DNA from: Prostheceraeus crozeri
Taxonomy: Eukaryota; Platyhelminthes; Polycladida; Euryleptidae
DNA length: 64,000 nt
Reading direction: 5' to 3'
Assembly: GCA_907163375.1 (NCBI GenBank)
Contig: CAJQUW010007317.1
Coordinates: forward strand, 170,692 to 234,691
Shown piece by piece: positions 726 to 24,504 of the stretch. Within the stretch, counting starts at the first letter, position 1, and every line of letters begins with the position of its first letter. Below the pieces are notes generated by a model that was given only the letters and a program-made list of their open reading frames with translations, made no database searches and had not been told where the DNA came from. The translations under genes and the position numbers were made by a program.

Positions 726-880
726 AGTAGTAAGAAAACGGCGAACACCAGATAGCGCAAGATGGCCGCCATCGCTGAGTCCCCCCCCCTCTGGTCCGCC
801 AGTGTCGTGATGTGCCGTCGAGGTTCTGCTGCCGTCCCCCCCCTCTGGTCCGCCAGTGTGTGAGTCTCGGGTGTCTGTGT

Positions 881-946
881 CCGACCGCCTGGTGGACTTG
901 GGCGACCGTCTAGGTTGACGTGGGCGACCGTCTAGGTTGTCTTGGT
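881..946 (+). repeat. 22-bp tandem repeat, three units
   Basis: Three consecutive 22-bp units start at 881, 903 and 925, all containing CGACCG, a (T/C)CT(A/G)G core and a G-rich end. The same array is present in reverse at about 24183-24248 and as six units at 59739-59870, always just inside a Polinton terminus. Confidence 0.85.
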
Positions 947-1251
947 TAAACTGTGGTATGTTTTGGTGTGTAGTGTCGAAACGCGGCCTCGGATGTGAAA
1001 ACGGAGGTCAGATTCGGATTCAGCGTGAAATTCTGCATCTGTATGGTGAATTTGAAAGCAATCGGAGATAAAAATTTTCCGCTGACGTCCCCCCCCTTTG
1101 ATCTAACTTTGGTTCTAGTGGACGGATTTTGTTCGTTCGACTTGCATTGGAAAGAGGATGAAACACTGCTCGACCGCATTTTTCGTTGCGAGTCAATCGG
1201 AGCAGCCGTTCAAAAGTTAGAGCGGTTACAAGATTTTAGGTCGGAGCTCAC

Positions 1252-1855
1252 CTGAAAAAATCCTAAGTGTCAGAGTGACTTTGTATGGGAAAAATTAAAA
1301 ATTTTCCAAAGTGTGGAATTTCGACCTGGGACCTTTACCAAAGTTTGTTTCATCAAATTTCGCTGACTCCCCCCCCCTTTGATCTAACTTTGGTTCTAGT
1401 GGACGGATTTTGTTCGTTCGACTTGCATTGGAAAGAGGATGAAACACTGCTCGACCGCATTTTTCGTTGCGAGTCAATCGGAGCAGCCGTTCAAAAGTTA
1501 GAGCGGTTACAAGATTTTAGGTCGGAGCTCACCTGAAAAAATCCTAAGATTTGTCCGAGTGAGCTCCGACCTAAAATCTTGTAACCGCTCTAACTTTTGA
1601 ACGGCTGCTCCGATTGACTCGCAACGAAAAATGCGGTCGAGCAGTGTTTCATCCTCTTTCCAATGCAAGTCGAACGAACAAAATCCGTCCACTAGAACCA
1701 AAGTTAGATCAAAGGGGGGGGGAGTCAGCGAAATTTGATGAAACAAACTTTGGTAAAGGTCCCAGGTCGAAATTCCACACTTTGGAAAATTTTTAATTTT
1801 TCCCATACAAAGTCACTCTGACACTTAGGATTTTTTCAGGTGAGCTCCGACCTAA
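1252..1855. repeat. Large inverted repeat (near-perfect palindrome, arms about 290 bp)
   Basis: The plus-oriented 281-bp unit ending near 1546 is followed, after about 15 nt (ATTTGTCCGAGTGAG), by the same unit in reverse from about 1561. The arms look essentially identical, including the C-run and G-run. Such a structure would fold into a hairpin and probably arose by fold-back repair or replication within the terminal array. Confidence 0.8.
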
Positions 1856-4968: not shown

Positions 4969-5012
4969 GAACGTTGCAAATGAAGTTCGGTGTAATACTT
5001 CCTTTCGACGGG

Positions 5013-5408: not shown

Positions 5409-5416
5409 TATATAAG
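5409..5416 (+). promoter_or_regulatory. TATA box of the 83-aa gene
   Basis: TATATAAG is 41 bp upstream of the ATG at 5457, with an initiator-like CTCATTC between them. This gives a short 5' UTR and no visible intron. Confidence 0.6.
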
Positions 5417-5456
5417 CTAGAAGATTGTAGCGCTTCTCATTCAATTTGAAGTCACG

Positions 5457-5708
5457 ATGGAAGCCACATCTGCCGACAACATTCCCGTCTTCATTGATGA
5501 AGATAACGCCATTCCCGAGTTCGTCATCCTCGACGAGTGGGATGAGGATGAGAAGAAGGGGAAGATCAAGAGGATCATTTGGACGGATGAGGTGTGGACT
5601 CCAAATACCACCCGCATCCGAAAGGTGCCGGATGCACCAGTACGACCTCGGCGGTATAGGGTTTATGACAATCTAAGCGTCATACCCCTTGACTATTCAA
5701 GCCAATAG
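5457..5708 (+). CDS. Small acidic/basic bipartite protein (83 aa), unknown
   Basis: The ATG at 5457 follows a good TATA box. The N-terminal half is acidic (FIDEDN, LDEWDEDEKK) and the C-terminal half basic with several Arg (RIRKVP, RPRRYRVYDN). No signal peptide, membrane segment or known domain is visible. It lies between the two 531-bp cassettes, the second of which starts eight bases after the stop. The context (short TATA-driven gene at the element's left end) suggests an accessory early function, by inference only. Confidence 0.55.
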   Translation: MEATSADNIPVFIDEDNAIPEFVILDEWDEDEKKGKIKRIIWTDEVWTPNTTRIRKVPDAPVRPRRYRVYDNLSVIPLDYSSQ

Positions 5709-7172: not shown

Positions 7173-10100
7173 ATGGTAAGTTGAAGATTTCCTCTCTCAT
7201 CTCCCTCAAACGTGTGGTTCATAGCATCTTCCTCAATTTCAGGCATCAACTTCATCACCAACGCCCTCCCTTCTCGAGGAAAGTTTAGAGTTATTGAGTC
7301 AAGGTAGGTTGCAACAATACACTGAGGCTTGAACAGAGATGATAGAATGATTTCTCTTTCAGGCGATGTGAGTTCCAGCTCAGAACTGTCGCGACATGGT
7401 AACGAGTGGGAATGTGCTGACTGTGGGCACATCTTCACGAGGAAATGGGATCTCACCCGACACATCAAGCGAGGTGTTTGTCGACCTAAGCCGGCATCAA
7501 TCTCCGGAGGTGGGGATGATTCTGTTAACGTCGTCTCCTTTTCTTGCGACTTGTGCGCTCAGTCTTTCGAGACACGTTTTGAACTATCTTCGCACAGACT
7601 TCAACATACACACACGAACGATAGCTACACCAACGGTACCTCCTCTATCCAACTCACTGAAGTGTCCATAAATAATTTAGTGAGGAACTACCAGATGGAC
7701 TCCTCAGAAACCATTGCTAACTTTGAGGAATGGTTTCATCAAAATTCATCATTGATAGAAGCGCTCTTCAACAATTTAGACAATTTTAGGATGAAGGCGC
7801 TCATCTATCTTAAAATAAAATATGTAAAAATCGATCACCATACTGGACAAATAATAGAGAGGTTGGAGTTTCACATACCCTCCTCTCCTGCAACCGAGGT
7901 TGTAGACTATGAGTCTTGGATAAATTTTCACATCCAAGGATTAAAATTAAATATTGATAAATTTAACGAGCGCGATAGCGGTCTCATTTTTGACGGCATT
8001 GAGTCCGCCTTATTTAAAATCAGTTTATTAGGAAATCATAGTGGTCGAGGCTCCTTTAAACTTCCAAAAAATTTAAAAAACAAAACAGCAGTCATCAATG
8101 TCGATTGCGAATCGCAATGTTTTAAATATGCTGTCCTCTCCATTCTCCACTATAATGACATCAATGCGAATCGAAATCGTACATATAGCTATAGGCAGTG
8201 GGAGAATGAATTAAACTTCGATGACTGTAATAGTGACGATATGAAAATTAAAGATATAGAAAAATTTGAAAAATTGAACAACATTAAAATAGTTCTCCAT
8301 GTTTGGGAAAAGGGATTGAAGGGTGTGCGCTACAACTCGCGTTCGAGTTGTTATGATCATGTTGTCAACCTTTTATTAGTAAGACAGGATGATAGTGAGG
8401 AATGGCACTACTGCGGCATTCCCAAAATCTCTCGCTTATACCACCACTTAAGAAATTCTACCTCATCAGAGATTTATTACTGTGACAGATGCATTCGGAA
8501 CTTTAGGAGTAAAAACAAATTTGAAACTCATTATGAGTGGTGTAAGCGAGGTAAACTGCAAATGGAACGCATGCCCAAAGATAAGGAGTTTTCATATAGA
8601 GAGAATGGTGATGAACTAAGTCCTCTTCGTGTCATCTATGCTGACATCGAATGTTATATCGATGATAACATCCATCGACCAGCAGCCATTTCCTGCTATG
8701 AAGTATGGCATGACCATTTCCAAAATAGAAAAAATAAAATGCACGTCTGGCAAGGTGAGGATTGTATTTACCAATTCCTACAATTCCTCGAACAGGCTGT
8801 AAAATTTCAACAAAAGTATGATGGTGAACTCTATCGCAGATCATTGCATATGACAGCAGATGATCAAGCAAAATTTGATAGTTGCAACGTTTGCCCCAAA
8901 TGTAGGAAAACATTTGACGATGATAAGATTAAGAAAGTGCGCGACCATGACCACATCACTGGTAAATTTAGAAACGCACTCTGTTCAAAATGTAATTTTT
9001 CGCTGAGGATGAAGCGGCGTACATTACCCGTCATTTTCCATAATTTCAAGGGCTACGACAGCCATATGATAATAAAAGGAGGTTTAGGTCAAATGAAAGA
9101 GTGGAAGCTTGATGTAATAGCACAAACGAGAGAGAAGTTTATGGCCATGACAGCAAAAGTGCCTGTCGATAAAACTAAAGAAAATAAGACGGTCTATTTT
9201 GATATAAAATTTTTAGATTCCTACCAATTTATGACTGCATCACTGGCCTCTCTCGTGCAAAATCTAAAGTCTCTTCCACTAACACAAAATCTTAAGAAAC
9301 AATATCCAAATCTAACCGATGAAGTCATCACACGGAAAGGAGTCTTTCCATATGCATATTTTGATGCAATTAGTAAACTCGGCGAGACTTCTCTTCCGCC
9401 CATAGATAAATTTAAAAATGATTTGACCGGCGCAGAATGTAAGACCGAAGATTATGATCATGCACAAGATGCATGGATAAAATTTGACTGCCATACATTT
9501 GGTGAATATATGATTGCCTACCTTAAGTTAGATGTATTTTTGCTGGCTGATGTATTTCAGGAGTTTCGACGAGTGGCATTAGAAGAAGATAAGTTAGATC
9601 CCGTCCACTTTGTCAGTCTGCCAGCCATGTCATTTAAGTCTGCTTTTAAAATGACTGGTGAGACCATTCATCTCTTACAAGATCCAGAGATGTATAATTT
9701 ATTTGAGCGAGGAATTCGCGGTGGTCTCACATTTGTAAATAAACATAGGTTAAAATCAAAAATAGTAGGTAATGACCAGACTCATCTGAAGTATTATGAC
9801 CAAAATAATTTGTATGGTAGTTCATTATCCAAACCGCTACCTCACTCTGAGTTTAGCTGGTTAGATGATAGTGAAATTCAACATTTCTCCAACCCTTCCA
9901 ACATACTAGCAATTCCAGATGAAGGTGAATGGGGATATTATTTTGAGATAGATCTAATCTATCCAAATAATATTAAACATAAAACCGTAGATTTTCCACT
10001 CGCACCCGAATCAGGTGAAGTGAGTAAAGATATGTTTTCCGACTTTATGAAACAATTTCATAAAGATTTAGAATCATGTGGACAACCCAAGTATAAGCCT

Positions 10101-11147
10101 TGTCGCAAACTTTTACTCACTCAATATGATAAGGAAAACTATCTAGTCCACTTTAGCATCTTAAAATTTTATTTAGAAATGGGCATGATTTTAAAAAGAG
10201 TTCACCGCATTATTAAATTTAGACAGAAAGCCTTCCTCAAACCCTACATAGATAGTAACAGTCAGAAACGTGCACTAGCCCAAAATAATTTTGAAAAAGA
10301 TTTTTATAAATATAAGAACAACAGTCTATTTGGTAAGACGATGGAGGATGTTAGAAAGCGCGTAAACTACAAACTAGTTAATGATGATCAAAAGTATCAC
10401 AAATTGATCTCATCACCTCTATTCATCGATAGAGACATAATCGATGAGGATCTTGTAGGTATTAAAATGATAAAATCTGAAGTTGAGTTGTGCAAACCCA
10501 TCTATATTGGTCAAGCTGTTCTAGATTACTCCAAGCTTGAAATGTATCAACTCTTCTATAAAATACTAAAACCGTGTCCTCTCGTAAAAGAGGTTCGTTT
10601 GTTGGGTGGTGACACAGATAGTTTCTTTTTAGGTATTACCACTCAAAAAGATTTAAATTTTAATGAAGTAGGAAAATCTTTAGAAAGATATTTTGATACA
10701 TCAAATTATCCTGCTAATCATCCACTATACTCCATCAAAAATAAGGCAAAACTTGGCTGCTTTAAGGATGAGACAGCAGGGAAGGAGATAGCTGAAATGA
10801 TTCTCCTCCGCCCTAAAATGTATTCTATGAAATTAAAGGATAGTGATGATAGCATTAAGCGCGCTAAAGGCATATCAAGATCATTGGTCTCTAACATGAA
10901 ACATAAGAATTTCAGGAAAGCCTATAGAAATAAAAATATAACGTTTGTCAATATGACAATCTTAAAATCTAAGTCGCATGAGATCAAAACTCATACTTTT
11001 AGGAAACGGGCGCTTTCAGCATGGGAGGATAAGAGGTGCTGGCTAGAACACAACATATCTCTTCCACATGGACATCCTGACACAAACATACCACCACCCA
11101 AAAGAATTAAACTCACACTACCACATTCAGGAGACGTCTTAGCATAA
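7173..11147 (+). CDS. Family B DNA polymerase (protein-primed type), spliced
   Basis: Replicates the element. Predicted structure: exon 1 is only ATG (7173-7175), intron 7176-7242, exon 2 7243-7303, intron 7304-7362, exon 3 to 11147. The frame is preserved, giving about 1282 aa. Two C2H2-type fingers lie near the N-terminus (CADC...H; CDLC...HRLQH), followed by the conserved Polinton N-terminal region and a Cys/His domain (ESQCFKYAVLSIL ... EEWHYCGIPK). A third finger follows (CDRC...H). Exonuclease motifs follow: YADIECY, HNFKGYDSHM and LKLDVFLLADVF. Between the first two is an HNH-like segment (CPKC, RDHDHITGKFRNALC, CNFSLR). Polymerase motifs are YYDQNNLYG (A), YKNNSLFGKTME (B) and GGDTDSFF (C). 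All catalytic acids are present, so the enzyme looks intact. It ends with a basic tail. Confidence 0.93.
7176..7242 (+). other. First intron of polymerase, immediately after the ATG
   Basis: AAATG|GTAAGT at 7176 and CTCAATTTCAG ending 7242, 67 nt. The following exon keeps the frame and begins GCATCAACTTC, very similar to the start of exon 2 of the 235-aa gene (GCATCTACTCC). Confidence 0.65.
7304..7362 (+). other. Second intron of polymerase
   Basis: Donor CAAG|GTAGGT at 7304 and acceptor TTTCTCTTTCAG ending 7362, 59 nt. Splicing gives an in-frame junction with the long exon. Confidence 0.6.
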
Positions 11148-11452: not shown

Positions 11453-12973
11453 TCACTTTGTTTTCCGAAACACTAACGTTATGAGGGATTTAGTATCTTT
11501 CACATGGATGCACTCTTGTAAACCATTGGTAATTTTGATAGCAATAGAGGGTATAGTTTGTTTGACGACGGGATGATAGAAAATAGATTCAAACATCTTC
11601 TCGACTATTCCATATGAAGCGTCTTTATCATGAATGAAATCACGTAAAATGTATTCTTTTTTCTCGCCAACAGAAATAGGTAGAATCAAATCACTTTGAA
11701 TGTAAAGGTGCTGTTCATGTTTATCAAGTGTCATTGGTGTTTCTATACCAATCGTATGCGCAGCAGCAAACACAGTTTGTAGCATTGAAAAACCAAAGAG
11801 TTTTTTCAAATTTTTACTCAATTGACATTGAATGTCATCACCCAGTCTCAGAACAACGCGTTGATTTTCAATTGAAAACGAAATGTGGTGTGTCTTTACA
11901 TCATATTTACTTTTCATCACATGCTTCAACTTCTGTTGTATATAAGGATTTACTACATGAATGAAGCTTTCAACTGTATGATATAGACGCGGCATTATAT
12001 TGATAGCAACTTTAGATTCTTCATAAGACTGGTAAATTTTCTTGATGCGATCGCCATAGATGTCCACCCACCATTCATCATTAACTGAATCAGCTTTAGT
12101 GTGATATTCATGAGAAGCATATACCACACCGCTTCCAATAATAGGTGTATAATGTCTTACAAAATGACGCAAGGTTGGAGAGAAATAAACTGTAAGTTTG
12201 TCATTATATTTCTGAATAACCAACTTATTTTTGTCCGCCATAATTTTCTCTCCATACTTCTTACCCACAGTCTCATTCCATCGTTTTACTAACTCAATAA
12301 GTGATAAAGGTTGAACACCACGCTTTTTCAAAATGATGCGTTCTTCGCATTCTACAACATCTTCATCAAATATTTTAAATCTATAATGAAATTTGTTGAT
12401 TCGATTTGAATAAACTTTTCTAACATTTGCAGTAGCAATTGACGTTAGATGTAGTCCATGACCAAAACCGAGATGCGGATAGAATTCACTATCCAACCTC
12501 AGCGTAAGACCTTTAGTAAAAGAATGAAAGCGGAGGAACTGTCTCCCACTCCAATGATAGATAGTAAACTCATAAGCTTTCTGATTTTTATTCTTCATGA
12601 TGGAAGTATTACCACTGTTGAATGCCTTAATAATTTTCTCATTCCCAAATGGCTCATAAGAATCTGATTTTATCTGAATCCATTCATAGTTCCACTTTCC
12701 ATCTGATGTTAAATTGTATGGGAACTGAAATGCATTATTCATCGTTATTCCATCATGGGTGCGAGGAGTCAATATCATTTCTTCCAAATCATTCACATTC
12801 TGAATATTGCTATCATAGCAAATACTAGAAACGCCAACCTCCCATTCACCTTCTAAATGCAGTGGGCGATTTAATTCTACTCGATAGTCTGATGGTTTAT
12901 TTTTGGGAAATTTATTCATAGAAGCATTACTGGGCAAGTAGATTAGAAACGAGTCCTTATTTTCACTTTCCAT
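11453..12973 (-). CDS. WEVG-family Polinton protein, copy 1 (506 aa), probable virion component
   Basis: The frame is open from 13003, but the second ATG (12973) is preferred. From there the N-terminus aligns with the downstream paralogue: SFLIYLPSNASM here, SFYHILLSNAATK there, each followed by a GxWEVGV motif (LEGEWEVGV). The middle contains repeated motifs of the type VEEWW/VESFIHVVN and a C-terminal LGFSM segment also matched by the paralogue. No transmembrane segment. I know similar 'GEWEVG' proteins as uncharacterised neighbours in invertebrate Polintons. Length and tandem capsid-region position suggest a structural (penton, fibre or decoration) role, by inference. ATGCAAA lies 33 nt upstream of the chosen ATG. 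Confidence 0.75.
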   Translation of the reverse strand: MESENKDSFLIYLPSNASMNKFPKNKPSDYRVELNRPLHLEGEWEVGVSSICYDSNIQNVNDLEEMILTPRTHDGITMNNAFQFPYNLTSDGKWNYEWIQIKSDSYEPFGNEKIIKAFNSGNTSIMKNKNQKAYEFTIYHWSGRQFLRFHSFTKGLTLRLDSEFYPHLGFGHGLHLTSIATANVRKVYSNRINKFHYRFKIFDEDVVECEERIILKKRGVQPLSLIELVKRWNETVGKKYGEKIMADKNKLVIQKYNDKLTVYFSPTLRHFVRHYTPIIGSGVVYASHEYHTKADSVNDEWWVDIYGDRIKKIYQSYEESKVAINIMPRLYHTVESFIHVVNPYIQQKLKHVMKSKYDVKTHHISFSIENQRVVLRLGDDIQCQLSKNLKKLFGFSMLQTVFAAAHTIGIETPMTLDKHEQHLYIQSDLILPISVGEKKEYILRDFIHDKDASYGIVEKMFESIFYHPVVKQTIPSIAIKITNGLQECIHVKDTKSLITLVFRKTK

Positions 12974-13006
12974 ATTATTCACATTGGAAAAATATATTAG
13001 CATACG

Positions 13007-13013
13007 TTTGCAT
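13007..13013 (-). promoter_or_regulatory. ATGCAAA motif upstream of WEVG copy 1
   Basis: Minus-strand ATGCAAA, 33 nt before the preferred ATG at 12973. Confidence 0.4.
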
Positions 13014-14410
13014 TAACTCTTCATTCGGAAATGGAGTGTGATACTTGTCACAGCATCTTTATGAAAAGGAATCAACGCACCAGCATCGTCATAAATGGCA
13101 ATATCAATTTGTGGGATGTAGTTTGATTTCAGCTTTGTATAATGCACTTTCTTGAAAGTATGCTCAGATAAAATACTGCAGCTCTTTGGCTGGTATGGTA
13201 TCATTGCTAACAATGGAGCTTCAACATCTCCCACACGTACATCTTCACCAATATTGGAATATATCTGAAAATAGTTAATACGACGCGATAGCGACATGTC
13301 TGCGCTAGCTTTGGTTACAGTACCACTTTTAAAGATATTTTGGTCAAAACCCAAAATGTCCATTAGAGTTTTATCCATAATTAGTTCAATACCTTTTCCA
13401 CTTATAGTGAGAGACAAAGTACCTTCTTTTTCAGAAAATGAAATATGTTGGTCATTAATCACTTCATTTAAATAATCTACAACCAATTTAACTGAAGTAA
13501 TGATGCGAGGCATCAGCACTCTTGTTTCATGTAAGATACCACCGAAAGGCTCTACACACTTTCTGTATAAAGATACGCTCCATTCTGTATCAAATTGATT
13601 TGACCTTTCACATGGTAAATGTTGCATATTAAATTTTCCATGAACAGCTGCAGAATGATGTCGCAAGAACTGATGAAAATCTTTTGAACAAATTAATACT
13701 AGATCATCATCATTTAATTTACTTATTGCAATATGATTAGATGATTTAATATAAGTCAATGTTGCCACTTGTTTACCATCAACTCGAAGGAGATAATTAA
13801 ATTTCTTCAATAATGTTTCAGGAGTCATGTTTGTCTTTCTTGGCTTAATCACAATCTTCTTCACCAACGTCTTCTCATTTTTTGGAATAAGATCTACATA
13901 ATAAGCTTCCTCTCGATATATTAACTGTTTATGAGCACTTATGTGGTAATTAACGTTAAAATTATCATAGCTTGTCAAGGCGCTAGCGAGGTAACCTAAA
14001 TCATTTCTTAAACTTGGACTTAAACCAACAATCCAATCTTTCTCAACTACATGATGTATATAAGTATAATCATCATTGTGTGGAGTAAATTGGGCAATAT
14101 GTTTACACGCTTTATTCAAGAAATCATATATAAACTTTTTACATGATAAGAGATCTTTCTTTGACCACTGTGGAATGTATACTCGGCAGCCCTTTTCACA
14201 TTGGTAAGCAGCTGTACGTCTCATATTAATAGTCATCACCTCATGATCAAAAGTATAGACACAGTTGCTATAAACAAGTTGAGTGACACCCACTTCCCAA
14301 TTCCCATTTAGCTGTTGTGCATGATCAATGGGAGTAGAAAAGACTGCGGCTCGATTACTAGTAAATCTCTTTGTAGCCGCATTGCTAAGCAAAATATGAT
14401 AAAACGACAT
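13013..14410 (-). CDS. WEVG-family Polinton protein, copy 2 (465 aa)
   Basis: Start at 14410 (MSFYH) rather than the non-ATG upstream codon. It is paralogous to the adjacent 506-aa protein over its length: GNWEVGV near residue 40, an MPRI segment near 300, and LGFDQNIF near 360. The two genes are 39 bp apart (stop to the preferred ATG), consistent with tandem duplication followed by strong divergence. ATGCAAA is 22 nt upstream of the ATG, followed by AATATAAAA. The start is only 35 bp from the oppositely oriented PC4-like gene, so the interval must act in both directions. Probable virion protein, by context. Confidence 0.75.
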   Translation of the reverse strand: MSFYHILLSNAATKRFTSNRAAVFSTPIDHAQQLNGNWEVGVTQLVYSNCVYTFDHEVMTINMRRTAAYQCEKGCRVYIPQWSKKDLLSCKKFIYDFLNKACKHIAQFTPHNDDYTYIHHVVEKDWIVGLSPSLRNDLGYLASALTSYDNFNVNYHISAHKQLIYREEAYYVDLIPKNEKTLVKKIVIKPRKTNMTPETLLKKFNYLLRVDGKQVATLTYIKSSNHIAISKLNDDDLVLICSKDFHQFLRHHSAAVHGKFNMQHLPCERSNQFDTEWSVSLYRKCVEPFGGILHETRVLMPRIITSVKLVVDYLNEVINDQHISFSEKEGTLSLTISGKGIELIMDKTLMDILGFDQNIFKSGTVTKASADMSLSRRINYFQIYSNIGEDVRVGDVEAPLLAMIPYQPKSCSILSEHTFKKVHYTKLKSNYIPQIDIAIYDDAGALIPFHKDAVTSITLHFRMKS

Positions 14411-14432
14411 TTTTATATTGCTAATCTGCAAC

Positions 14433-14439
14433 TTTGCAT
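14433..14439 (-). promoter_or_regulatory. ATGCAAA motif in the 35-bp divergent promoter
   Basis: Minus-strand ATGCAAA (ATGCAAAGTTGCA), 22 nt before the ATG at 14410. The same bases lie just upstream of the plus-strand ATG at 14446, so one short interval serves both genes. Confidence 0.45.
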
Positions 14440-14445
14440 AACATC

Positions 14446-14802
14446 ATGAAGACTTGGATTTTGGACTCTCTACAATATATCAGAGTTGATCGTGATGGAA
14501 ACGTACATTTCAAAAATTCTCATGGTCATACATCAAGAGGAATTACATTAACATGGCGACAATTTGTCAACCTCAATGATATCATGAGGGATTTGGAATA
14601 TTTTGAAACATTAAGATTCATCTCCCTGGGTGATCAAGTTTGGCTTCAACATTACAGAAATGAAATTCAAATCTACCATTCTCATTCCGCAAACTGTTTC
14701 TCATTTCGCAAATACAATTGGGAGAAGTATAGAAGATACATACATCGCTCCATCATGACATTTATTCGTCGTGAGTTCATCGCCCTACTATGCAAATCTT
14801 AA
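14446..14802 (+). CDS. PC4-like duplicated-domain protein, 118 aa
   Basis: Start at 14446 (MKTWILDSL); the earlier open codon is not ATG. The protein shows two half-repeats. The first is YIRVDRDGNVHF followed by RGITLTWRQFVNL, the second VWLQHYRNEIQIY followed by FSFRKYNWEKYRRYI. The order (short beta strands, then a GI-L-x-QW/F-x-x-L helix start) resembles the single-stranded-DNA-binding PC4/SUB1 C-terminal domain, a cofactor of RNA polymerase II transcription. It is paralogous to the next gene. Position beside a TBP-like gene supports a transcription role. The PC4 assignment rests on pattern similarity only and needs a profile search. Confidence 0.5.
   Translation: MKTWILDSLQYIRVDRDGNVHFKNSHGHTSRGITLTWRQFVNLNDIMRDLEYFETLRFISLGDQVWLQHYRNEIQIYHSHSANCFSFRKYNWEKYRRYIHRSIMTFIRREFIALLCKS
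14790..14796 (+). promoter_or_regulatory. ATGCAAA motif upstream of the second PC4-like gene
   Basis: Plus-strand ATGCAAAT, 28 nt before the ATG at 14825. It overlaps the 3' end of the 118-aa frame. Confidence 0.4.
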
Positions 14803-14824
14803 TCAGACATGACTATCACGCACC

Positions 14825-15475
14825 ATGAGTTGGAAATTAGATTCCCTACAACGTATTGAAACGGATCATGATCGAAACGTCTATTTCAAAGATTCAACTG
14901 GAAATGTGAGAAGAGAGTTTGCTTTATCTTATCGCCATTTTCAATCTCTACATCATATCATGAAGGATTTAAAATACTTCTATATGAAAAGACATTCACG
15001 TATTGGAAATCGCATCTGGTTGCGCGTCAACAATCGGCGAATTCAACTCTATCATTCCCAACTTCATACTAACTTCACATTTCATCAAGGTAGTTGGGAA
15101 AAGTATAAAAGGAAGGTACATCGCTCAATTTACTCATTCTTTCATCATGAAGCGCCATCGCTACACCATCGTCAACATTCTCCGTCGCTTCAGACTCTAC
15201 ACCAAAATCGATCTCACAACATTACACCAACAGCTTCCAAACAGCAAGTATTACCCGGGTCGTCCTCAAATGTTAGTGGTGAAGATGAACAATTCACGGA
15301 ATCTTCAACTCTTCCCAAATGGGACTGTACAGATTCTCGGCGCCCTTTCTCATTCATCGGCGCAGTCAATGCGCTTAGAGCTACAAAGACTACTACGTCG
15401 GATATGGAAGAGGGAGAGGTGTGTGATGTCGAATCTGACTGTGGACAATATGGTGATCTCTACTCAATTGAGTGA
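14825..15475 (+). CDS. PC4-like protein with Ser/Thr-rich acidic tail, 216 aa
   Basis: Residues 1-107 align with the 118-aa neighbour throughout (WKLDSLQRIETD, LSYRHFQSLHHIMKDLKYF, RIWLRVNNRRIQLYH, GSWEKYKRKVHRSI). After that the protein continues with a His/Gln/Ser-rich linker and an acidic end (MEEGEVCDVESDC). The last 110 codons overlap the TBP-like gene in another frame (329 bp). The tail could be a genuine overlapping extension resembling an activation domain, or an accident of frame. The paralogue stops soon after the second repeat, which favours caution about the tail. Confidence 0.5.
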   Translation: MSWKLDSLQRIETDHDRNVYFKDSTGNVRREFALSYRHFQSLHHIMKDLKYFYMKRHSRIGNRIWLRVNNRRIQLYHSQLHTNFTFHQGSWEKYKRKVHRSIYSFFHHEAPSLHHRQHSPSLQTLHQNRSHNITPTASKQQVLPGSSSNVSGEDEQFTESSTLPKWDCTDSRRPFSFIGAVNALRATKTTTSDMEEGEVCDVESDCGQYGDLYSIE

Positions 15476-15692
15476 CAGTCTATCATTTTTGAAGATTCGT
15501 ACCAGCAGTTACAGTTTGTGTTATGAACCCGAACTTTTTCCTGCAGCTCTCATTAGTTGTTGGTTACCTGTGCATGTGGCAATCTTTCATAATAGTAAAG
15601 TGATCATTACTGGACTAAAATCTCATGTACAAGCAAATATGATCCTAGACTATCTCATTGAGTATGTACGTACCCAGCGGATTGTAAAATAA
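15147..15692 (+). CDS. TATA-binding-protein-like protein (181 aa)
   Basis: Start at 15147 (MKRHRY); the longer open frame has a non-homologous leader lying inside the PC4-like gene. The length equals a bare TBP core and it has two imperfect direct repeats. Repeat 1 (about 7-90): TIVNILRRF, KIDLTTLHQQLPNSKYYPGR, LQLFPNGTVQILGA. Repeat 2 (about 100-178): LTVDNMVISTQL, SSYSLCYEPELFP, VAIFHNSKVIITGLK. YEPELFP and the F-x-N/S-G/K-V-x-x-TG strands are TBP hallmarks. Of the four DNA-kinking Phe positions known in TBP, three are Phe here (LQLF, ELFP, AIF); the first is replaced in YYPGRPQ. No N-terminal extension. TATAAAAGG lies 43-35 nt upstream, though this also encodes a conserved motif of the overlapping gene. 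AATAAA overlaps the stop. Confidence 0.8.
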   Translation: MKRHRYTIVNILRRFRLYTKIDLTTLHQQLPNSKYYPGRPQMLVVKMNNSRNLQLFPNGTVQILGALSHSSAQSMRLELQRLLRRIWKRERCVMSNLTVDNMVISTQLSDSLSFLKIRTSSYSLCYEPELFPAALISCWLPVHVAIFHNSKVIITGLKSHVQANMILDYLIEYVRTQRIVK

Positions 15693-15723
15693 AAAAACAA
15701 TTTTTCCAACATGATGTTTTTAT
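15688..15723. terminator. Overlapping convergent poly(A) signals
   Basis: AATAAA at 15688-15693 overlaps the stop of the TBP-like gene. TTTATT at 15718-15723 (minus-strand AATAAA) overlaps the end of the protease gene. Only 27 bp separates the convergent stop codons. Confidence 0.6.
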
Positions 15724-16181
15724 TTCAAATCATGATAGAACTTACAAATCATTTTTTCATTAGAGGATGGATTACATGAAAAGTTTTGAATAACAGATAC
15801 AAATCGAGATACATGTAAACGTCTTAAGATGAAGTACAGTACAAAAGCACCACACGTTGATGAAAGTGGATGTTGTAGTATGCGTTCATTTCGCTGATAT
15901 TGACGCGTATGTTTTCTCAACCACTGCTGTGTTGGTATATTTGGAGGTTGAGCAAGAGAGTCAAATAGTTCACCACGTCGGTCTTCTCCAATAAAGATCG
16001 CTTTCCAATGCTCACCGCCTAAATTCTGTGAATGAGTGTTTAGCACAATAAAGATGGGATAGTGATTTACTGCAGGTGGTAAGGTATCGAGTGAATAGAC
16101 ATTATCGAAAGCTTTCAACGTCGCTTCGTCTGCATTACGCTGCACTTTAGTCTTAATATCGTCAGCAGTCAACCAACTCAT
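15720..16181 (-). CDS. Adenain-like cysteine protease (153 aa)
   Basis: Processes virion precursors in adenoviruses and, by homology, Polintons. The active-site order is as in the C5 family: His in GGEHWKAIFI (about residue 57), acidic residue in GELFDSLAQPP (about 72), Gln in RILQHPLSSTCGAFVLYF and Cys in the same motif (about 110). The length of 153 aa is short but complete for Polinton proteases. The ATG overlaps the stop of the capsid gene by one base (TAATG), indicating tight coupling in a late-type cluster. Confidence 0.85.
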   Translation of the reverse strand: MSWLTADDIKTKVQRNADEATLKAFDNVYSLDTLPPAVNHYPIFIVLNTHSQNLGGEHWKAIFIGEDRRGELFDSLAQPPNIPTQQWLRKHTRQYQRNERILQHPLSSTCGAFVLYFILRRLHVSRFVSVIQNFSCNPSSNEKMICKFYHDLK

Positions 16182-17458
16182 TAACGATTATACTGAAGAA
16201 TCACGTCACGATACTTTGTAATTTCAATATTTGAATCGAAGACTGCATAAATTAATACATTGATCGTCTCAGGTAGTGTTCTTTTGAACGTTAAATCCAA
16301 ACGAATATTATGAGGCACGTTCGCTTGACGATAGGGTGCACTAATATCGCTGTCAGCAGTCAAATCAAATGCATAAATAGTATATCCACTCTTAAACTCT
16401 TTCATAGTCAGTCCGTTGGTGTCATCCGTATTGTAAAAGCCAAAAACATCCATAAAATCAACATAACTGCGCATAAATTGATCTGAAGCAAAATCTGGTT
16501 TGTAGGGTGGACCAGGATGACTCACACCATTTACACGTAAAGCAATTTCACTTAACTGATTGTGTTTAAAATTGAAAGGATTCTTCTTTATATTACCATT
16601 AAATGCATCATTTTCAACCATTGCCACCATGAGGAGCTTCGGTGCTTCCGATGGAAAGAGGCCATCTTTCATGAAACTCTTTTGATCTTTCGGAATTGTA
16701 AAGGTGAGAAGCTTTGTATGCTGAATGGGGTAAATGGCATTTTGGCGGTTAAGGCCTTCAGCATGCCCTCTAATGACACTTGGATTCGGTACTACTCGAC
16801 GAATGTAAAGTGCAATATCTTCCACATGAATTCTAAAATTGTCAACTTTAGCAAATGCATTCAGCGCAAATTCAGGCTTATTCAATGTCAGCTTGAGTCG
16901 CATGCTGGTATTACACAGTAAAAACTTTGACTGTCTAAAGAAGTCTAAATTCAGCGGACCATATAGCTGACATACTCTACTATCTTTAATCATAGCAGAT
17001 CGCTTTACAAAGCCACTGTTTGTTTCAACATCAAATTTTCCTGCTTCATCTCTGTACCATCCCATGGCTTCCATATGACTTTTTTGTGCTGCTGGATGAA
17101 ACTGTGATACATGATTGAAATATGATTTATAGGGATAATCGCTTTGACCACCTTCCACTTGCTGCTCTCCAATCGTTAGAGAAACATCACGAAGTAATGT
17201 AGTCAATGGTAAATTGTTCAGTCCAACTTTATGTGCATCGTCAATAGCAGTTCCATCTGCTTGCTGAATTCTAAACCTCAAATCAAGCATCGCATAACTC
17301 AAATCTATGTAGTCATCACTACCACCAGGAATAACAAATTCAATGGGGCCAGCATTCTCAGCTGTTCGAGGATGATAATCTACAATACTTGAACTAAGAA
17401 TATCTGTCTGTATGGCTTGTTGATCGAACAAACAAAAACCGGAAGTTTTACACTCCAT
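16181..17458 (-). CDS. Double-jelly-roll (hexon-like) major capsid protein (425 aa)
   Basis: Matches the Polinton major capsid family, which also includes proteins annotated in animals as F54H12.2-like. The signature near residues 35-60 is ENAGPIEFVIPGGSDDYIDL, followed by LTTLLRDVSLTIGEQQVEGG and a PYKSYFNHV segment. The C-terminal half has the second beta-rich domain ending in DLTFKRTLPETINVLIYAVF. No signal or membrane segment. A full frame of typical length (400-450 aa) suggests particles could be assembled. It is preceded by the basic core-like protein with a 2-bp gap and followed by protease in TAATG overlap. Confidence 0.85.
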   Translation of the reverse strand: MECKTSGFCLFDQQAIQTDILSSSIVDYHPRTAENAGPIEFVIPGGSDDYIDLSYAMLDLRFRIQQADGTAIDDAHKVGLNNLPLTTLLRDVSLTIGEQQVEGGQSDYPYKSYFNHVSQFHPAAQKSHMEAMGWYRDEAGKFDVETNSGFVKRSAMIKDSRVCQLYGPLNLDFFRQSKFLLCNTSMRLKLTLNKPEFALNAFAKVDNFRIHVEDIALYIRRVVPNPSVIRGHAEGLNRQNAIYPIQHTKLLTFTIPKDQKSFMKDGLFPSEAPKLLMVAMVENDAFNGNIKKNPFNFKHNQLSEIALRVNGVSHPGPPYKPDFASDQFMRSYVDFMDVFGFYNTDDTNGLTMKEFKSGYTIYAFDLTADSDISAPYRQANVPHNIRLDLTFKRTLPETINVLIYAVFDSNIEITKYRDVILQYNR

Positions 17459-17460
17459 GA

Positions 17461-17916
17461 TTAGAAGTTATAGCAGCGTCGTCGTTTAGCGCCTGATGAA
17501 TGATTAGAGCCTCTGCGACGTTTGCGTGAATGCCTTTTGACTGAAGATCGCACCTTACCAGCTCCGCGATGTTTCCTCCTTCCTTTATTCATTCGTTTAG
17601 GTGATTTCTTTCCTTGAGTAACACCAGCAATGGTCTGCTTCAATGTTTTTAAACCGCGTTCCTTCCCACGATTCAACAAACTGCTCTTAAAACTTCTACC
17701 TCTGGAAAGATCACTAGCAACATCACCAGCAAAGCCAACGGCATTACTTAAAACATTTCGTTTTAAAGATCTACCGACATTGGATATGAGAGGTGCTACA
17801 ACAGATTTCAGTGCACCAAGTATGCTACCTCCACGTTGGCGGCGAGCACCGATGTAAATTTGTCCTCCGCCACTTACATAGGAGGGTCGTGAATAAAATG
17901 AGGCAGTTGGATTCAT
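17461..17916 (-). CDS. Basic virion-core-like protein with an amphipathic segment (151 aa)
   Basis: Very basic, especially the last 50 residues (KSPKRMNKGRRKHRGAGK and later KRHSRKRRRG). A Gly-rich, hydrophobic stretch lies near residues 28-45 (RGGSILGALKSVVAPLI). The layout resembles adenoviral pVI, pX or pVII-type precursors. The position directly before the capsid gene matches the Polinton/adintovirus gene order. A DNA-condensing or membrane-active virion role is inferred. ATGCAAAG lies 31 nt upstream of the ATG. Confidence 0.65.
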   Translation of the reverse strand: MNPTASFYSRPSYVSGGGQIYIGARRQRGGSILGALKSVVAPLISNVGRSLKRNVLSNAVGFAGDVASDLSRGRSFKSSLLNRGKERGLKTLKQTIAGVTQGKKSPKRMNKGRRKHRGAGKVRSSVKRHSRKRRRGSNHSSGAKRRRCYNF

Positions 17917-17957: not shown

Positions 17958-19046
17958 TCACTGTCGATCACTTAGATGAAAGATGTCGGCACGACGCATC
18001 CAAGAGTTCATACTTGAAGGATAACCAGTCCATTTAACAAGACACCATTCTTCACCTTGCCGTTTTTTACATCGAATGATTTTCTCTACCAAATATGTTT
18101 CACTTTCAGTGACTACCTCAATCTCATCGCGGTAAAAGCTACCCTCAATTTCTTCATTATCGTAATCTTTCAACTTGTAGGTGGTCGGAGAGTCTTTTTG
18201 ATTAATCCTTGATACTGTAAATACCTCCTCTGTCCAATTCGGAAGGTACCCTTTAGCAAAAACACTTTTCACTTTTGAGATACGAACTTTATCGCCAATT
18301 TTCACATCACTTTTCACATGAGTGCGTTTACGTTGGAATGATTCGCGCACTTTATCTACATTGTCAGCATTTACATCTACTGGTCTGAGTCCAATAGAAC
18401 GATGGATAGAGTGATTGTAGGCATGGAGTGTATCTTGTAGAACCTTTGTCCAATTTTGTGTCAAGTTGGCAGTAAAATGTCGCCACAAGCGATTTTTTAA
18501 TGTGCGATTAAAACGTTCAACGAGTGCAGCTTTATAAGCGCTCTTTACACTAAACAACTCAATGTCATGCCTCTCAAATAATCTTGTCACATGCTGATTT
18601 TCAAACTCTTTTCCTTGATCACTCTGAATTCTTTTTGGAATGCGACCTTCTCGAAAAATTGTTTGGAATGCTTTTGCTACTCCTTTCCCTTCTTTAGTTT
18701 TTAAAGGTTGAGCCCACGCATAACGCGAGAAAATATCAATGACGGTTAAAATAAAATTATTGCCCGAGTTATGTTTTGAAATGGAGGCAACATCGCACAA
18801 ATCTGCTTGCCACTGTTCATCGATGTCATGAACAATATAATGGCGGGTGCGGTACTTCTTTTTCGCTTGTTTGTGGAGTGTATAGGTAGCCTGACCCTTT
18901 AACCATCGTTTCACTTGTGATTGTGGAAGACCACTCGCTTTTGATAATTTCTTGATAGATGCAAATCCTGCCGGATGTTTTACATCATAATAGATTGACT
19001 TCAAACGTTCAGTCGATGACGGCTGACTCTTTTTCCTCCTTCTCAT
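17958..19046 (-). CDS. Polinton integrase with C-terminal chromodomain (about 362 aa)
   Basis: Inserts the element into the genome. Start at 19046 (MRRRKKSQPS) is preferred; the frame continues upstream to 19178 but there overlaps the Cys-rich gene. Domains in order: helix-turn-helix-like (LSKASGLPQSQVKRWLKG), retroviral-type core with D in QADLCD, D in SDQGKEFEN and E in ALVERFNRTLK (33 residues between the last two), SH3-like region (KVRISKVKSVFAKGYLPNW), and chromodomain at the end (YLVEKIIRCKKRQGEEWCLVKWTGYP). In the chromodomain the usual acidic residue after NSW is Met. The DDE triad is complete, so it looks functional. Confidence 0.88.
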   Translation of the reverse strand: MRRRKKSQPSSTERLKSIYYDVKHPAGFASIKKLSKASGLPQSQVKRWLKGQATYTLHKQAKKKYRTRHYIVHDIDEQWQADLCDVASISKHNSGNNFILTVIDIFSRYAWAQPLKTKEGKGVAKAFQTIFREGRIPKRIQSDQGKEFENQHVTRLFERHDIELFSVKSAYKAALVERFNRTLKNRLWRHFTANLTQNWTKVLQDTLHAYNHSIHRSIGLRPVDVNADNVDKVRESFQRKRTHVKSDVKIGDKVRISKVKSVFAKGYLPNWTEEVFTVSRINQKDSPTTYKLKDYDNEEIEGSFYRDEIEVVTESETYLVEKIIRCKKRQGEEWCLVKWTGYPSSMNSWMRRADIFHLSDRQ

Positions 19047-19224
19047 CTTTTTTCTTTCTTGCCTTTCTACATTTACAACAACTGCAGCATTTAGCTTTAG
19101 CGGTTTTGCGATCGTGTTCACATTGCTTAGGGGTTTCATTATGAGAGCTGGCGCAGCAAGTGCAAGTGACAACGACATTCACCTCTGGCGGCTCATTACA
19201 TGGCAAGCAACACATCTGCTTCAT
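19009..19224 (-). CDS. Small Cys-rich protein (71 aa)
   Basis: ATG at 19224 is one base from the stop of the 230-aa gene. It has about 14 Cys in 71 residues (CCLPC, CTCC, CEHD, CCSCCKC), then a very charged KKKDEKEEKE tail. This pattern suggests metal binding. It overlaps the start of the integrase in another frame by about 38 bp. No family recognised. The tight packing supports a real gene, but shortness leaves doubt. Confidence 0.45.
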   Translation of the reverse strand: MKQMCCLPCNEPPEVNVVVTCTCCASSHNETPKQCEHDRKTAKAKCCSCCKCRKARKKKDEKEEKESAVID

Positions 19225-19225
19225 A

Positions 19226-19918
19226 TTAATAGTCTGAGAACATGTATTTCCTAGGAGGAGCTGTTTTACGTTTTCCTTTTACCAGTTTTAGTGGCGATGT
19301 AGATCTACGTCGAGTTCTTCCTCTTGTTTGCTTAGTGAGTGTGGGAGGGGATGTAGCAGGTGACGTCTTAAACCAATTTGTTGGCATTTTCATCGCCTGA
19401 AGCATTGGAGTAGTAGCCACTGTTGAATCAAGTTCTTTCAATGTCTCATTATTTAAAGCAAATTTTGGCACATTATGCTTTTTCAATAGTTTAAGAAAGT
19501 ATGACCAACCAGGTGGAACATAGCCCTGACGGCGCTTTCTACGTGTCGCATACTGAATCAAGTCTTCATAACGTGAAGCATCAATCACTTTATTTTCATC
19601 TGTAATGATTTCTCCTCTATCATTTACATTGAGATGGGGTTCAATACTGTTGAAAAGAGATATGGCATGTGCGCGAGATGCTAAAGGTGTAGCAGTCGAT
19701 ACAGAGTCACGCATCTTATTCTTCAAGTTTTTCAATTGCTCAACAGTTTCCGATTGTAATAATACAGCACGATGTGGATCTTTGATGTGAACATTTTGCT
19801 GATAATCTATTTCTTTCCTATACATTTGATTTGCAAGAGGTTGCTTTACTTGCTGCATGGCAGTCAATTGTACATATTCATCCTGAGGAATAACAATCAT
19901 GCGAGAATAAGAACTCAT
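19226..19918 (-). CDS. Conserved Polinton protein of unknown role (230 aa)
   Basis: Overlaps the packaging ATPase by four bases (ATGA). The N-terminal half is Gln/Lys-rich and probably helical (VEQLKNLKNKM). A compact motif around residues 130-155 (RRQGYVPPGWSYFLKLLKKH, then NVPKFALN) is familiar from uncharacterised proteins in animal Polintons. The C-terminal 50 residues are basic and Ser/Thr-rich (RGRTRRRSTSP). The location between ATPase and integrase suggests a packaging or virion role, by inference. Confidence 0.65.
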   Translation of the reverse strand: MSSYSRMIVIPQDEYVQLTAMQQVKQPLANQMYRKEIDYQQNVHIKDPHRAVLLQSETVEQLKNLKNKMRDSVSTATPLASRAHAISLFNSIEPHLNVNDRGEIITDENKVIDASRYEDLIQYATRRKRRQGYVPPGWSYFLKLLKKHNVPKFALNNETLKELDSTVATTPMLQAMKMPTNWFKTSPATSPPTLTKQTRGRTRRRSTSPLKLVKGKRKTAPPRKYMFSDY

Positions 19919-20532
19919 AGTTTGTAGATAATCATGGGAGTTTTCAAAATATCACTTCGAAATCTAAATTCTTCCGGACACTCTTGCGTAAAGTCAATGA
20001 ATAAGTAACCGTATGGTTTTTCAGTAGCTGCTTGAAAAATTTCAATTAAGGCTTTTGATCCTCTGGGTGCAACTTGTCGCGCTAAAATTTCAAATTGACT
20101 TTTATCTCGCGGATTCTTGAAAATAGCATAATAGTGTGTATTCAGGTTTCGTGTACGAGCTTCTTTTCCATCAGGAAACAAATTTTGTGTAATATAGATG
20201 ATAAAACACCTTTTATGGTGTGCTGCGCGAGTGAACATATCTGTAACATCTTTTGAATTCTTACTTTCTTTTAATAAATCATCCAATACAACAACATCAT
20301 TAGACTGAAGTTTATCCACTGGAATAATTCCTTCATGTCGAATAAAGTTGCGACTTTGCAATTCCTGAAACAGCGACGGTTGATAAATACCATAACACCA
20401 AATCACTCGATTGATAGGTTCCTTAAACAACTCCCTTCTTTTATCCAATAAATTCAGCGTGAAAACAGTTTTACCTGCATGAGATGGACCTGATACAGTC
20501 AGAACTTTATCACATTGAAGTCTGAAATCCAT
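19915..20532 (-). CDS. A32/FtsK-like genome-packaging ATPase (205 aa)
   Basis: Walker A is VSGPSHAGKT, about residues 13-22 from the preferred start. Walker B is DVVVLDDLL, and a TQNLF sensor-like Gln follows. This is the packaging ATPase family of Polintons, adintoviruses and large DNA viruses. Start at 20532 (MDFRLQ) is preferred over 20580: family members start just before this strand, the upstream codons overlap the preceding gene, and ATGCAAA then falls 22 nt upstream. The motif set is complete. Confidence 0.85.
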   Translation of the reverse strand: MDFRLQCDKVLTVSGPSHAGKTVFTLNLLDKRRELFKEPINRVIWCYGIYQPSLFQELQSRNFIRHEGIIPVDKLQSNDVVVLDDLLKESKNSKDVTDMFTRAAHHKRCFIIYITQNLFPDGKEARTRNLNTHYYAIFKNPRDKSQFEILARQVAPRGSKALIEIFQAATEKPYGYLFIDFTQECPEEFRFRSDILKTPMIIYKL

Positions 20533-20554
20533 TTTATTACTTTGAGACTCAACA

Positions 20555-20561
20555 TTTGCAT
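20555..20561 (-). promoter_or_regulatory. ATGCAAA motif upstream of the ATPase
   Basis: Minus-strand ATGCAAAT, 22 nt before the preferred ATG at 20532. If the longer frame were used it would be coding. Confidence 0.4.
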
Positions 20562-20563
20562 AA

Positions 20564-20920
20564 TTAACGCTTAGAGCCAAAGATATTTCCCAATAGGTTG
20601 CCCACGGCAGGAGCTATCATTGGAAGTATTGCTGAAAGGAAACCGCCCTTTTGTGTTAGAGTTTTCCTCTTTCTTTGAAGGGCGACTTTAGGATTGGAGA
20701 TGAAACGCAATTTCGTAGCATATCGCTTAAGTAACTTTCGTTGTTTTGGCGCTAATTTCTTCGTCCTCAACTTCCTCACATGAGAAATAATTTCACAAAT
20801 GAATTTATCGTTAGCATGTCGTATAGCATTGTATCGCTGATTTGCTTTCATTCGTCGGAGAGCTTGAATGGCTGAAGAAAACTTTTGACTTTTACGTTTC
20901 GTCATTTTACGTTTCGCCAT
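20564..20920 (-). CDS. Basic protein with hydrophobic, membrane-active-like C-terminus (118 aa)
   Basis: Residues 1-95 are very rich in Lys and Arg (MAKRKMTKRKSQ; RKLRTKKLAPKQRKLLKRY). The end is hydrophobic and Gly-rich (QKGGFLSAILPMIAPAVG, then NLLGNIFG). Similar small proteins, sometimes called melittin-like, are typical of Polintons and adintoviruses and may be functional analogues of the adenoviral membrane-lytic protein; that role is inferred. ATGCAAAT lies 39 nt upstream. The gap before it (20921-20971) is short. Confidence 0.65.
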   Translation of the reverse strand: MAKRKMTKRKSQKFSSAIQALRRMKANQRYNAIRHANDKFICEIISHVRKLRTKKLAPKQRKLLKRYATKLRFISNPKVALQRKRKTLTQKGGFLSAILPMIAPAVGNLLGNIFGSKR

Positions 20921-20971: not shown

Positions 20972-21301
20972 CTAACTATTGCGACATAAGTGACACTCGA
21001 AATGAGCAATGTCACAGTGGTTACATTGGCAAAGTTGAATGCAATTACGTATGAAACAGCGTTGACAAAAAGCATGCTTACATCTCTTGAAGATGCGCTT
21101 TTCATTTCCATCCTTTCGCTTACATACATCGCAACACATAGTTTCACCGTTACTGATGTCTATAGCAAGTCTTTTTGAAGATATGAATTTGCTAGCCTTT
21201 TCTAAATAATAGACGCATGTACAGAAGGAATATACTTCGAGAGTGAGCAGACATAGCTCGAAAACCAGTTGTGCTACAATCAAGTACCACTGCATTTTCA
21301 A
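20972..21301 (-). CDS. Membrane-anchored RING-finger protein (109 aa)
   Basis: About residues 4-31 form one strongly hydrophobic segment (YLIVAQLVFELCLLTLEVY). The rest is a Cys/His-rich C-terminal domain: CDVC, then ten residues, CKHAFCQRC, then CQCNHC and CHLC. The CxxC-x10-CxHxxCxxC spacing is RING-like, suggesting an E3 ubiquitin ligase tethered to a membrane. It overlaps the stop-start of the 136-aa gene by four bases. A second RING-like protein lies at 22378-22578. Whether it targets host or element proteins cannot be told. Confidence 0.6.
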   Translation of the reverse strand: MKMQWYLIVAQLVFELCLLTLEVYSFCTCVYYLEKASKFISSKRLAIDISNGETMCCDVCKRKDGNEKRIFKRCKHAFCQRCFIRNCIQLCQCNHCDIAHFECHLCRNS

Positions 21302-23313: not shown

Positions 23314-23410
23314 TTTAGTTGGATAATAGAACAGGGAACTAGAGAGAGAAAATGTGCGTCCGTCACTCGTGTGATTCAACGATGGAATGATTCTCACTGT
23401 GGAAGGCTCG

Positions 23411-23475: not shown

Positions 23476-24504
23476 GATTCCAAATCTGGCATCCGTTTAC
23501 CCATCCGATGCTTCGTTTTGAAGCTAGAGCCCAAAACGTCCCAAATTCTAACTCTGTCGTTTTTCACCAATGTCCCAAAATCTTAAATGGCGTCTAACAT
23601 GTAAACGAAGGCAGATACGAACAAGCCGATTCTTTCACTGAATTTGTCTCACTCTTAGCTTTCAAACGAGCTATCGCACGACAAAATCCGTCCACTAGAA
23701 GCCAAAATCGAAGCAAGCTGTCCAGAGGGGGGGGGGGAGGTCAGTGAAATTTGATGAAAAATGTTTTGGTGACGGTCCCAGGTCGAAATTCCACACTTTG
23801 GAAAATTTTCAAAATTTTACCCATACAAAGTCACTCTGACACTTAGGATTTTTTCAGGTAAGCGAGCTCCGACCTAAAATCTTGTAACCGCTCTAACTTT
23901 TGAACGAAGACAGATAGGAACAAGCCGATTGTTTCACTGAATTTGTCTCACTCTTAGCTTTCAAACGAGCTATCGCACGACAAAATCCGTCCACTAGAAG
24001 CCAAAATCGAAGCAAGCTGTCCAGAGGGGGGGGGGACGTCAGCCGAAAATTTTTTCTCTCCGATTTCGCTGGAAACATCCTTCCTAACCCAAAATTTCAC
24101 GTAGATTCCGAATCTGGCCTCGGTTTTCTCATCCGATGCTTCGTTTGGGCGCTACACACCAAAAACATCACACACTATAGCCTCAAGACTAATCCTGGCG
24201 GTCGCCCACGTCAACCTAGACGGTCGCCCACGTCCACCAGGCGGTCGGACCCACTCACCCGAGTCTCACACTCTGTCGTTGCAGAGGGGGGGGGGACGTC
24301 AGCGAACATGTTGTGAACGTGGACCCACCCGGCCGGCACACCACGACAGACCACAACCTCTGTCGTTCCAGAGGGGGGGGGGGACTCAGACCCGAAGCAC
24401 CACGGCGGCCGACCACGACACTCTGCCGTGCCAGAGGGGGGGGGGACGTCAGCCACGACGGCGGCCATCTTGCGCGGTCCAGTATTTGTCACTTGCTTAC
24501 TACT
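23476..24504. repeat. Right terminal/subterminal repeat array of the Polinton
   Basis: G-run blocks at about 23727, 24025, 24284, 24372 and 24432 are embedded in the same units as the left array but inverted. Three 22-bp units (about 24183-24248) and the GGCGGCCATCTTGCGC end precede the exact terminus CTTACTACT at 24496-24504. Confidence 0.85.
24183..24248 (-). repeat. 22-bp tandem repeat, three units (inverted)
   Basis: Reverse complement of the array at 881-946. Confidence 0.8.

Follow-up and report, generated by a model that had tools for sequence, protein, structure and literature searches.

A Polinton-like element of ∼23.8 kb, bounded by terminal inverted repeats (Table 1), lies in the window, i.e., the whole 64,000-nucleotide stretch of Prostheceraeus crozeri DNA analysed here. 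The two repeats match each other in pieces of 78 to 100%. A 6-bp target-site duplication was not found at the element's borders (TCTGAA at positions 720 to 725 versus GACATG at 24505 to 24510), and the element is called Polinton-like for this reason; an old or rearranged insertion, or misplaced ends, could account for the mismatch. A near-perfect palindrome of ∼946 bp (positions 1072 to 2017; 98.1%) with 281-bp tandem units lies beside the left end, and a 539-bp direct duplication (4833 to 5371 and 5717 to 6255; 99.3% identical) flanks an 83-aa open reading frame (ORF) at 5457 to 5708. From ∼59583, where AGTAGTAAC is found, what seems to be a second Polinton-like element extends past the end of the window (64000). 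Terminal-repeat-like stretches between 59618 and 62477 are 77 to 97% identical to the ends of the first element (the longest spans 616 columns), and positions 63565 to 63845 are 97.9% identical to positions 3133 to 3413.

Several genes of the element were identified by profile matches (Table 1), some of them weak or sub-threshold, and others by motif. The 1,272-aa ORF, which we take from its motifs DIE and DTDS to be a protein-primed DNA polymerase B, has no polymerase match in Pfam, PHROGs, or the PDB; C2H2 fingers and an endonuclease VII motif are fused into this polymerase-type ORF. The 425-aa ORF is presumably, again by motif, the major capsid protein, and the 516-aa and 472-aa ORFs are taken to encode Polinton PX/PY-type proteins. 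Two small Cys-rich, RING-like ORFs are found on the minus strand at 20972 to 21301 and 22378 to 22626, with a RING E value of 0.34 for the second and no RING match for the first. No match to TFIIB or to an RNA polymerase subunit was found among the 19 element ORFs scanned with Pfam, out of 48 ORFs of at least 70 aa listed in the element region, and Rfam and tRNA scans gave no matches.

Table 1. Features of the Polinton-like element, in order of position in the window
Feature	Positions	Strand	Remarks
Left terminal inverted repeat	726..1377		Begins AGTAGTAAG
Second TATA/initiator pair, TATATAAG (5409)...TCATTC (5437)	5409..5442	+	Upstream of 83-aa ORF 5457..5708
1,272-aa ORF	7329..11147	+	C2H2 and endonuclease VII matches
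516-aa ORF	11453..13003	-	Related to neighbouring 472-aa ORF (tblastn 35%, E ∼1e-5)
ATGCAAA	13007..13013	-	10 nt before first ATG of 516-aa ORF
472-aa ORF	13013..14431	-	ATG at 14410
ATGCAAA	14433..14439	-	29 nt before ATG (14410) of 472-aa ORF
122-aa paralogue of 216-aa ORF	14434..14802	+	42% identity; first ATG at 14446
ATGCAAA	14790..14796	+	35 nt before ATG of 216-aa ORF
216-aa ORF	14825..15475	+	C-terminal 108 codons overlap TBP gene in another frame
TATA box of TBP gene, TATAAAAG	15104..15111	+	43 nt before ATG; inside 216-aa ORF
TCATTC initiator-like site of TBP gene	15134..15139	+	A lies 32 nt after first T of TATA box
TBP gene	15147..15692	+	181 aa; two PF00352 repeats; F99 equivalent is P40
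Ulp1/adenovirus-protease-like cysteine protease	15720..16181	-	Sub-threshold PF02902 and PF00770
425-aa ORF	16181..17458	-	No Pfam match
Basic protein	17461..17916	-	ATGCAAA upstream
ATGCAAA	17948..17954	-	38 nt before ATG of basic protein 17461..17916
rve integrase with C-terminal chromodomain	17958..19178	-	rve 1.2e-10; Chromo 6.5e-07
Packaging ATPase, A32-like	19915..20580	-	Weak, sub-threshold Pox_A32
ATGCAAA	20555..20561	-	29 nt before ATG (20532) of ATPase
118-aa basic protein	20564..20920	-	Weak, sub-threshold Adeno_PX (mu core protein) match
ATGCAAA	20960..20966	-	46 nt before ATG of 118-aa basic protein
Right terminal inverted repeat	23730..24504		Ends CTTACTACT

The first-pass annotation had read one 181-aa ORF of this element as a bare TATA-binding protein (TBP) core, and that reading is borne out. 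The ORF is intact, without interruption, and PF00352 matches it in two stretches (71.6 bits; cut-off, 22.9; Pfam E value, 4.9e-20). Its AlphaFold model has a pLDDT of 94.7, and the 44 best Foldseek matches in the PDB are TBPs; a TBP profile match and a predicted saddle were both found. The YEPELFP signature occupies residues 126 to 132. The earlier count of three out of four DNA-kinking Phe residues is correct: F56, F131, and F147 correspond to F116, F190, and F207 of yeast TBP (the reference for residue numbering, whose core was checked against PDB chains), and the first is lost (F99 to P40). The same annotation had placed the gene among virion genes; it does lie inside the element, and its setting can be refined in that the TBP gene is on the plus strand, flanked by a pair of small plus-strand ORFs and by a minus-strand block of protease, capsid, integrase, and ATPase genes.

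By sequence family and predicted fold, the 181-aa protein is a TBP. Because it has only three of the four DNA-kinking Phe residues, we do not class it as a canonical TBP that reads TATA. Chance resemblance is ruled out by the Pfam match, 61 homologues, the AlphaFold model, and the Foldseek matches, and a decaying gene is ruled out since the ORF is uninterrupted and conserved and overlaps a second conserved frame. The assignment of residues to TFIIB, TFIIA, and the wedge is assumed here: E127, E129, and L130, which form the stirrup, are equivalent to yeast E186, E188, and L189, presumably TFIIB contacts; F99, L114, V122, and T124 are taken to be DNA-face positions; and K138 is taken to face TFIIA, NC2, and Mot1.

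The protein belongs to a large family. Of 95 candidates in a first search, 61 were relatives (34 to 82% identity), each carrying PF00352, and a profile search returned 565 relatives among 3,481 candidates. Most relatives are unnamed metagenomic proteins, and a few were named by annotators, e.g., as TATA-box binding protein. Eight of the listed relatives (P0020 to P0022, P0046, P0047, P0106, P0108, and P0109) come from contigs of 13.7 to 24.7 kb. Residue conservation was counted in 137 proteins (the window's own, the 61 from the first search, and 75 from the best 120 of the 565 profile matches), and the figures lean to the family core because these are the best-scoring part of the 565 matches. 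F99 is replaced by P in 131 of 134 proteins (F in 61 of 62 archaeal TBPs), L114 by Q in 133 of 137 (L in all 62), V122 by Q in 137 of 137 (V in 50 of 62), and T124 by L, M, or F in 137 of 137 (T in 59 of 62). Similarly, L205 is A in 114 and K138 is E in 106 of the 137, against L in 62 and K in 43 of the archaeal proteins. The wedge Phe residues are kept (F116 in 137, F190 in 136, and F207 in 137 of 137), as are other residues of the DNA face (N69 in 116 of 116, N159 and V161 in 137 of 137, and T215 in 135 of 137) and the TFIIB-contact residues (E186 in 134, E188 in 136, and L189 in 122 of 137). Set against the archaeal counts, the changes cluster in the half of the DNA-binding face nearer the N terminus and are themselves conserved, and replacements so uniform across the family look like the outcome of selection for another function rather than of decay. 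A DNA-gripping surface that has been changed so consistently suggests that the element may use it to switch on its own genes.

Phylogenetic analysis covered 52 rows: 31 of the 137 family members, 16 of the 62 archaeal TBPs, two viral loci, and three eukaryotic rows, one of which (TBPL1) was a sequence entered by hand. The 31 family rows sampled all fall into a single clade (support, 100/100), apart from cellular and archaeal TBPs, on a long stem of 2.13 changes per column where, according to a program warning, long branches meet. Recent capture of a host TBP is without support, given this single clade and its long stem. Two IMG/VR contigs (L001 and L002; 79.7 and 35.5 kb) encode a TBP that is ∼48 to 52% identical to yeast TBP and falls outside the family in the tree. 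Scans of viral contigs with the TBP family, PolB, capsid, integrase, PX/PY, the overlapping ORF, and a single relative yielded no relative; scans of bacterial and archaeal genomes found no relative of the TBP family, and phage records likewise gave none.

The TBP gene shares part of its length with the 216-aa ORF, whose N-terminal ∼108 aa may adopt a Whirly/PUR-type (Whirly/PUR/MRP) fold that binds single-stranded DNA. The overlapping frame is not an accident: a stretch of 108 open codons arose in 1 of 20,000 synonymous permutations and in 0 of 20,000 resamplings. In four additional relatives, co-encoding of the tail together with family TBPs is possible over 18 to 30 consecutive residues, versus at most 9 in controls, and the best co-encoding partner is the window's own TBP for three of the four (two tied with P0003). 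This support is weaker, since the partner is mostly the window TBP, only part of the overlap is covered, and no exact partner TBP was found. In P0072, a relative of the region from 14434 to 15475, the ends of the two Whirly/PUR-like ORFs appear to be joined in one frame.

The TBP gene is preceded by a TATA box and an initiator-like site (Table 1). Their 32-nt distance is the textbook TATA-to-initiator spacing, and the initiator consensus is likewise textbook knowledge. The pattern TATAWAAG-N17-26-TCAKTY occurs 3 times in the window versus 0.13 expected, with 0 of 100 shuffles containing as many, and 2 times in the element alone versus 0.11 expected (as many in 3 of 300 resamplings). Taken by themselves, TATA-like strings show no enrichment across the window (23 versus 18.6 expected). 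The third pair in the window, TATATAAG...TCATTT, is found at 62779 to 62813 on the plus strand, inside the second element's left-end region. A TATAAATAG...TCATTC pair on the minus strand at 23385 to 23419, near the right end and reading leftwards, is a possible host-type promoter. Traces of the arrangement can also be sought in relatives, 24 of the 137 family proteins having at least 15 residues before the start Met. Thirteen of these have Ile-Lys at exactly position -14, compatible with ATAAAA, and 16 have His at -4, compatible with TCATT, in both cases like the window; in seven of the 24 the start Met is probably misplaced or the upstream region differs. These signals fit a conserved TATA box and initiator, and a conserved overlapping frame could be an alternative cause.

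A second class of candidate promoter element is ATGCAAA. Six of its eight copies in the element lie 10 to 46 nt before an ATG on the same strand (19 listed ORFs), and none of 100,000 random placements was as good at limits of 50, 70, and 100 nt (one at 150 nt). Among 3,500 heptamers with 5 to 20 occurrences it ranks first, and its binomial P value is 7.4e-08 among 1,126 heptamers tested; the motif was spotted in 100-nt upstream regions before being tested in this one element, and the tests over all k-mers are the correction for this. Four of the six upstream motifs read TATGCAAA, i.e., TATATAAA with GC replacing the central AT. ATGCAAA marks genes of the PX/PY, packaging, and core types, and the TBP gene has the standard TATA box. 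Thirteen of the 19 ORFs, including those for capsid, protease, integrase, and polymerase, have no ATGCAAA on their own strand within 70 nt. Its density within the element is no higher than elsewhere (8 in 23.8 kb versus 20 in the 40.2 kb outside), only its placement being unusual, and ATGCAAAK occurs 19 times in the whole 64 kb versus 10.2 expected. If the motif acts at -30, two genes would have almost no leader, as it stands 29 nt from their ATG; in the 516-aa ORF it is as close as 10 nt to the first ATG, and a second in-frame ATG follows 30 nt beyond.

The first-pass annotation had also suggested that such a protein would redirect RNA polymerase II (Pol II) to the promoters of the element. 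We infer the same, with anatomical support from the conserved TFIIB-binding residues and the two promoter classes. With moderate confidence, we propose that the TBP would be a promoter factor specific to the element and acting by way of host TFIIB; that ATGCAAA is its binding site is a tentative addition, with the chances somewhat against it. The proposed sequence of events is as follows. (i) In an active element, host TBP/TFIID and Pol II would read the TBP gene from its TATAAAAG plus TCATTC promoter, whose sites are present in the sequence and whose use is presumed. (ii) The element TBP would then bind non-consensus boxes, using a C-terminal half that is conserved and an N-terminal half that has been re-specified. 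The best candidate box is (T)ATGCAAA, TATA-like with a GC middle and located upstream of six genes; motif and placement are observed, and recognition by the element TBP is conjectural. (iii) The retained TFIIB stirrup would recruit host TFIIB and Pol II, host factors being invoked because no TFIIB or polymerase subunit was matched in the scanned ORFs of the element. Changed residues facing TFIIA, NC2, and Mot1 may release the element TBP from host regulators, and the neighbouring Whirly/PUR-like proteins may aid promoter melting or handle single strands. In terms of timing, the TBP gene would be early and host-read, and its product would then pick the element's own promoters. The complete scheme, i.e., a TBP re-specified to (T)ATGCAAA, a two-stage programme with host TBP early and the element's own TBP late via host TFIIB and Pol II, and a design common to the elements of hundreds of metagenomic relatives, is slightly less likely again and is offered as a possibility.

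The main rival separates the TBP from the motif: the TBP would serve other boxes, and ATGCAAA would be the site of a POU/Oct-type factor of the host or of some other protein of the element. ATGCAAAT is the consensus octamer of POU/Oct factors, and both the abundance of ATGCAAAK across the window and a density of ATGCAAA that is no higher inside the element than outside agree with this explanation. However, the motif stands 29 to 46 nt before five of the six starts, as a core promoter box would, and enhancer-type octamers typically lie farther away; we regard separate recognition as unlikely, if less so than any other rival. An ordinary substitute for host TBP, which would read the same TATA boxes and raise the supply of TBP, fits the TATA and initiator promoters in the element, but it leaves unexplained why F99 to P, L114 to Q, V122 to Q, and T124 to L are fixed or nearly so on the DNA face, and its probability is accordingly low.

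Under host shut-off, the protein would act as a decoy. It would draw TFIIB, or other partners of TBP, away from the promoters of the host, and its own DNA binding would be poor, as half of its DNA face is changed. A retained TFIIB stirrup beside a partly altered DNA face is what a decoy would look like, and yet the three wedge Phe residues, both central Asn residues, and T215 are kept almost without exception, none of which a pure decoy would need; this is improbable, though somewhat less so than a simple substitute. Least probable of all is an architectural or replication role, in which the saddle protein would bend element DNA for replication or packaging rather than for transcription. The adjoining ORFs, which may have a fold that binds single-stranded DNA, are in keeping with it, but it does not predict TFIIB-contact residues as conserved as the retained residues of the DNA face.

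With the TBPs of human, yeast, and archaea, the element TBP shares the bare-core two-repeat saddle, three of the four wedge Phe residues, the central Asn pair, and the EPELFP stirrup. Unlike them, it is only ∼21% identical to yeast and human TBP (37 of 176 and 37 of 177 aligned residues), has F99 replaced by P, a changed N-terminal DNA face, and Glu for K138, and is encoded by a mobile element. TRF2/TLF (TBPL1) is a TBP relative with altered wedge residues in which the TFIIB stirrup is still kept; unlike the element TBP, it falls on the cellular side of the tree branch, as judged from the sequence entered by hand. Chain H of the vaccinia intermediate transcription complex (8p0j; 382 residues), which we read as VITF-3, is 12% identical to the element TBP. 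The vaccinia intermediate factor works with a viral polymerase.

Polinton/Maverick elements and adintoviruses have in common with this element a chromodomain integrase, inverted ends, and, putatively, genes of the PolB, ATPase, protease, capsid, and PX/PY types. The TBP gene and the Whirly/PUR-like ORFs set it apart, as neither was found in the Polinton literature searched. Giant viruses and mirusviruses share a virus-borne TBP fold; the named BFVD structural matches to the element TBP include giant-virus TBPs, and the best match, which is unnamed, is 20% identical over 189 alignment columns. A TBP gene cluster is reported in 59% of mirusvirus genomes (PMC10132985), Megavirus chilensis has a TBP alongside its own polymerase and TFIIB (PMC11464507), CpV-BQ1 has a TBP with two TFIIB (PMC12085832), and TBP is sporadic in elements of putative mirusvirus origin from an alga (PMC10675990). 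For the Megavirus polymerase and TFIIB and the CpV-BQ1 TFIIB, no counterpart was recognised among the scanned ORFs of the element. No Polinton TBP was found in open-licence papers on Polinton/Maverick elements, adintoviruses, and virophages, and the main text of PMC11071296, PMC11071308, and PMC10120064 contains no TATA, TBP, or TFIID. Viral TBPs are thus already known, and a Polinton-like carrier is new as far as these searches go.

The conserved GRP-x-M signature provides a marker with which such elements can be found in metagenomes. Few transcription factors are as conserved as TBP, and to our knowledge there are hardly any natural cases in which its DNA specificity has changed. A family whose saddle is half rewritten, with its TFIIB side kept, would be a natural experiment on the DNA choice of TBP. 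It would also illustrate how a class of genes can be commanded by an element that has no RNA polymerase of its own.
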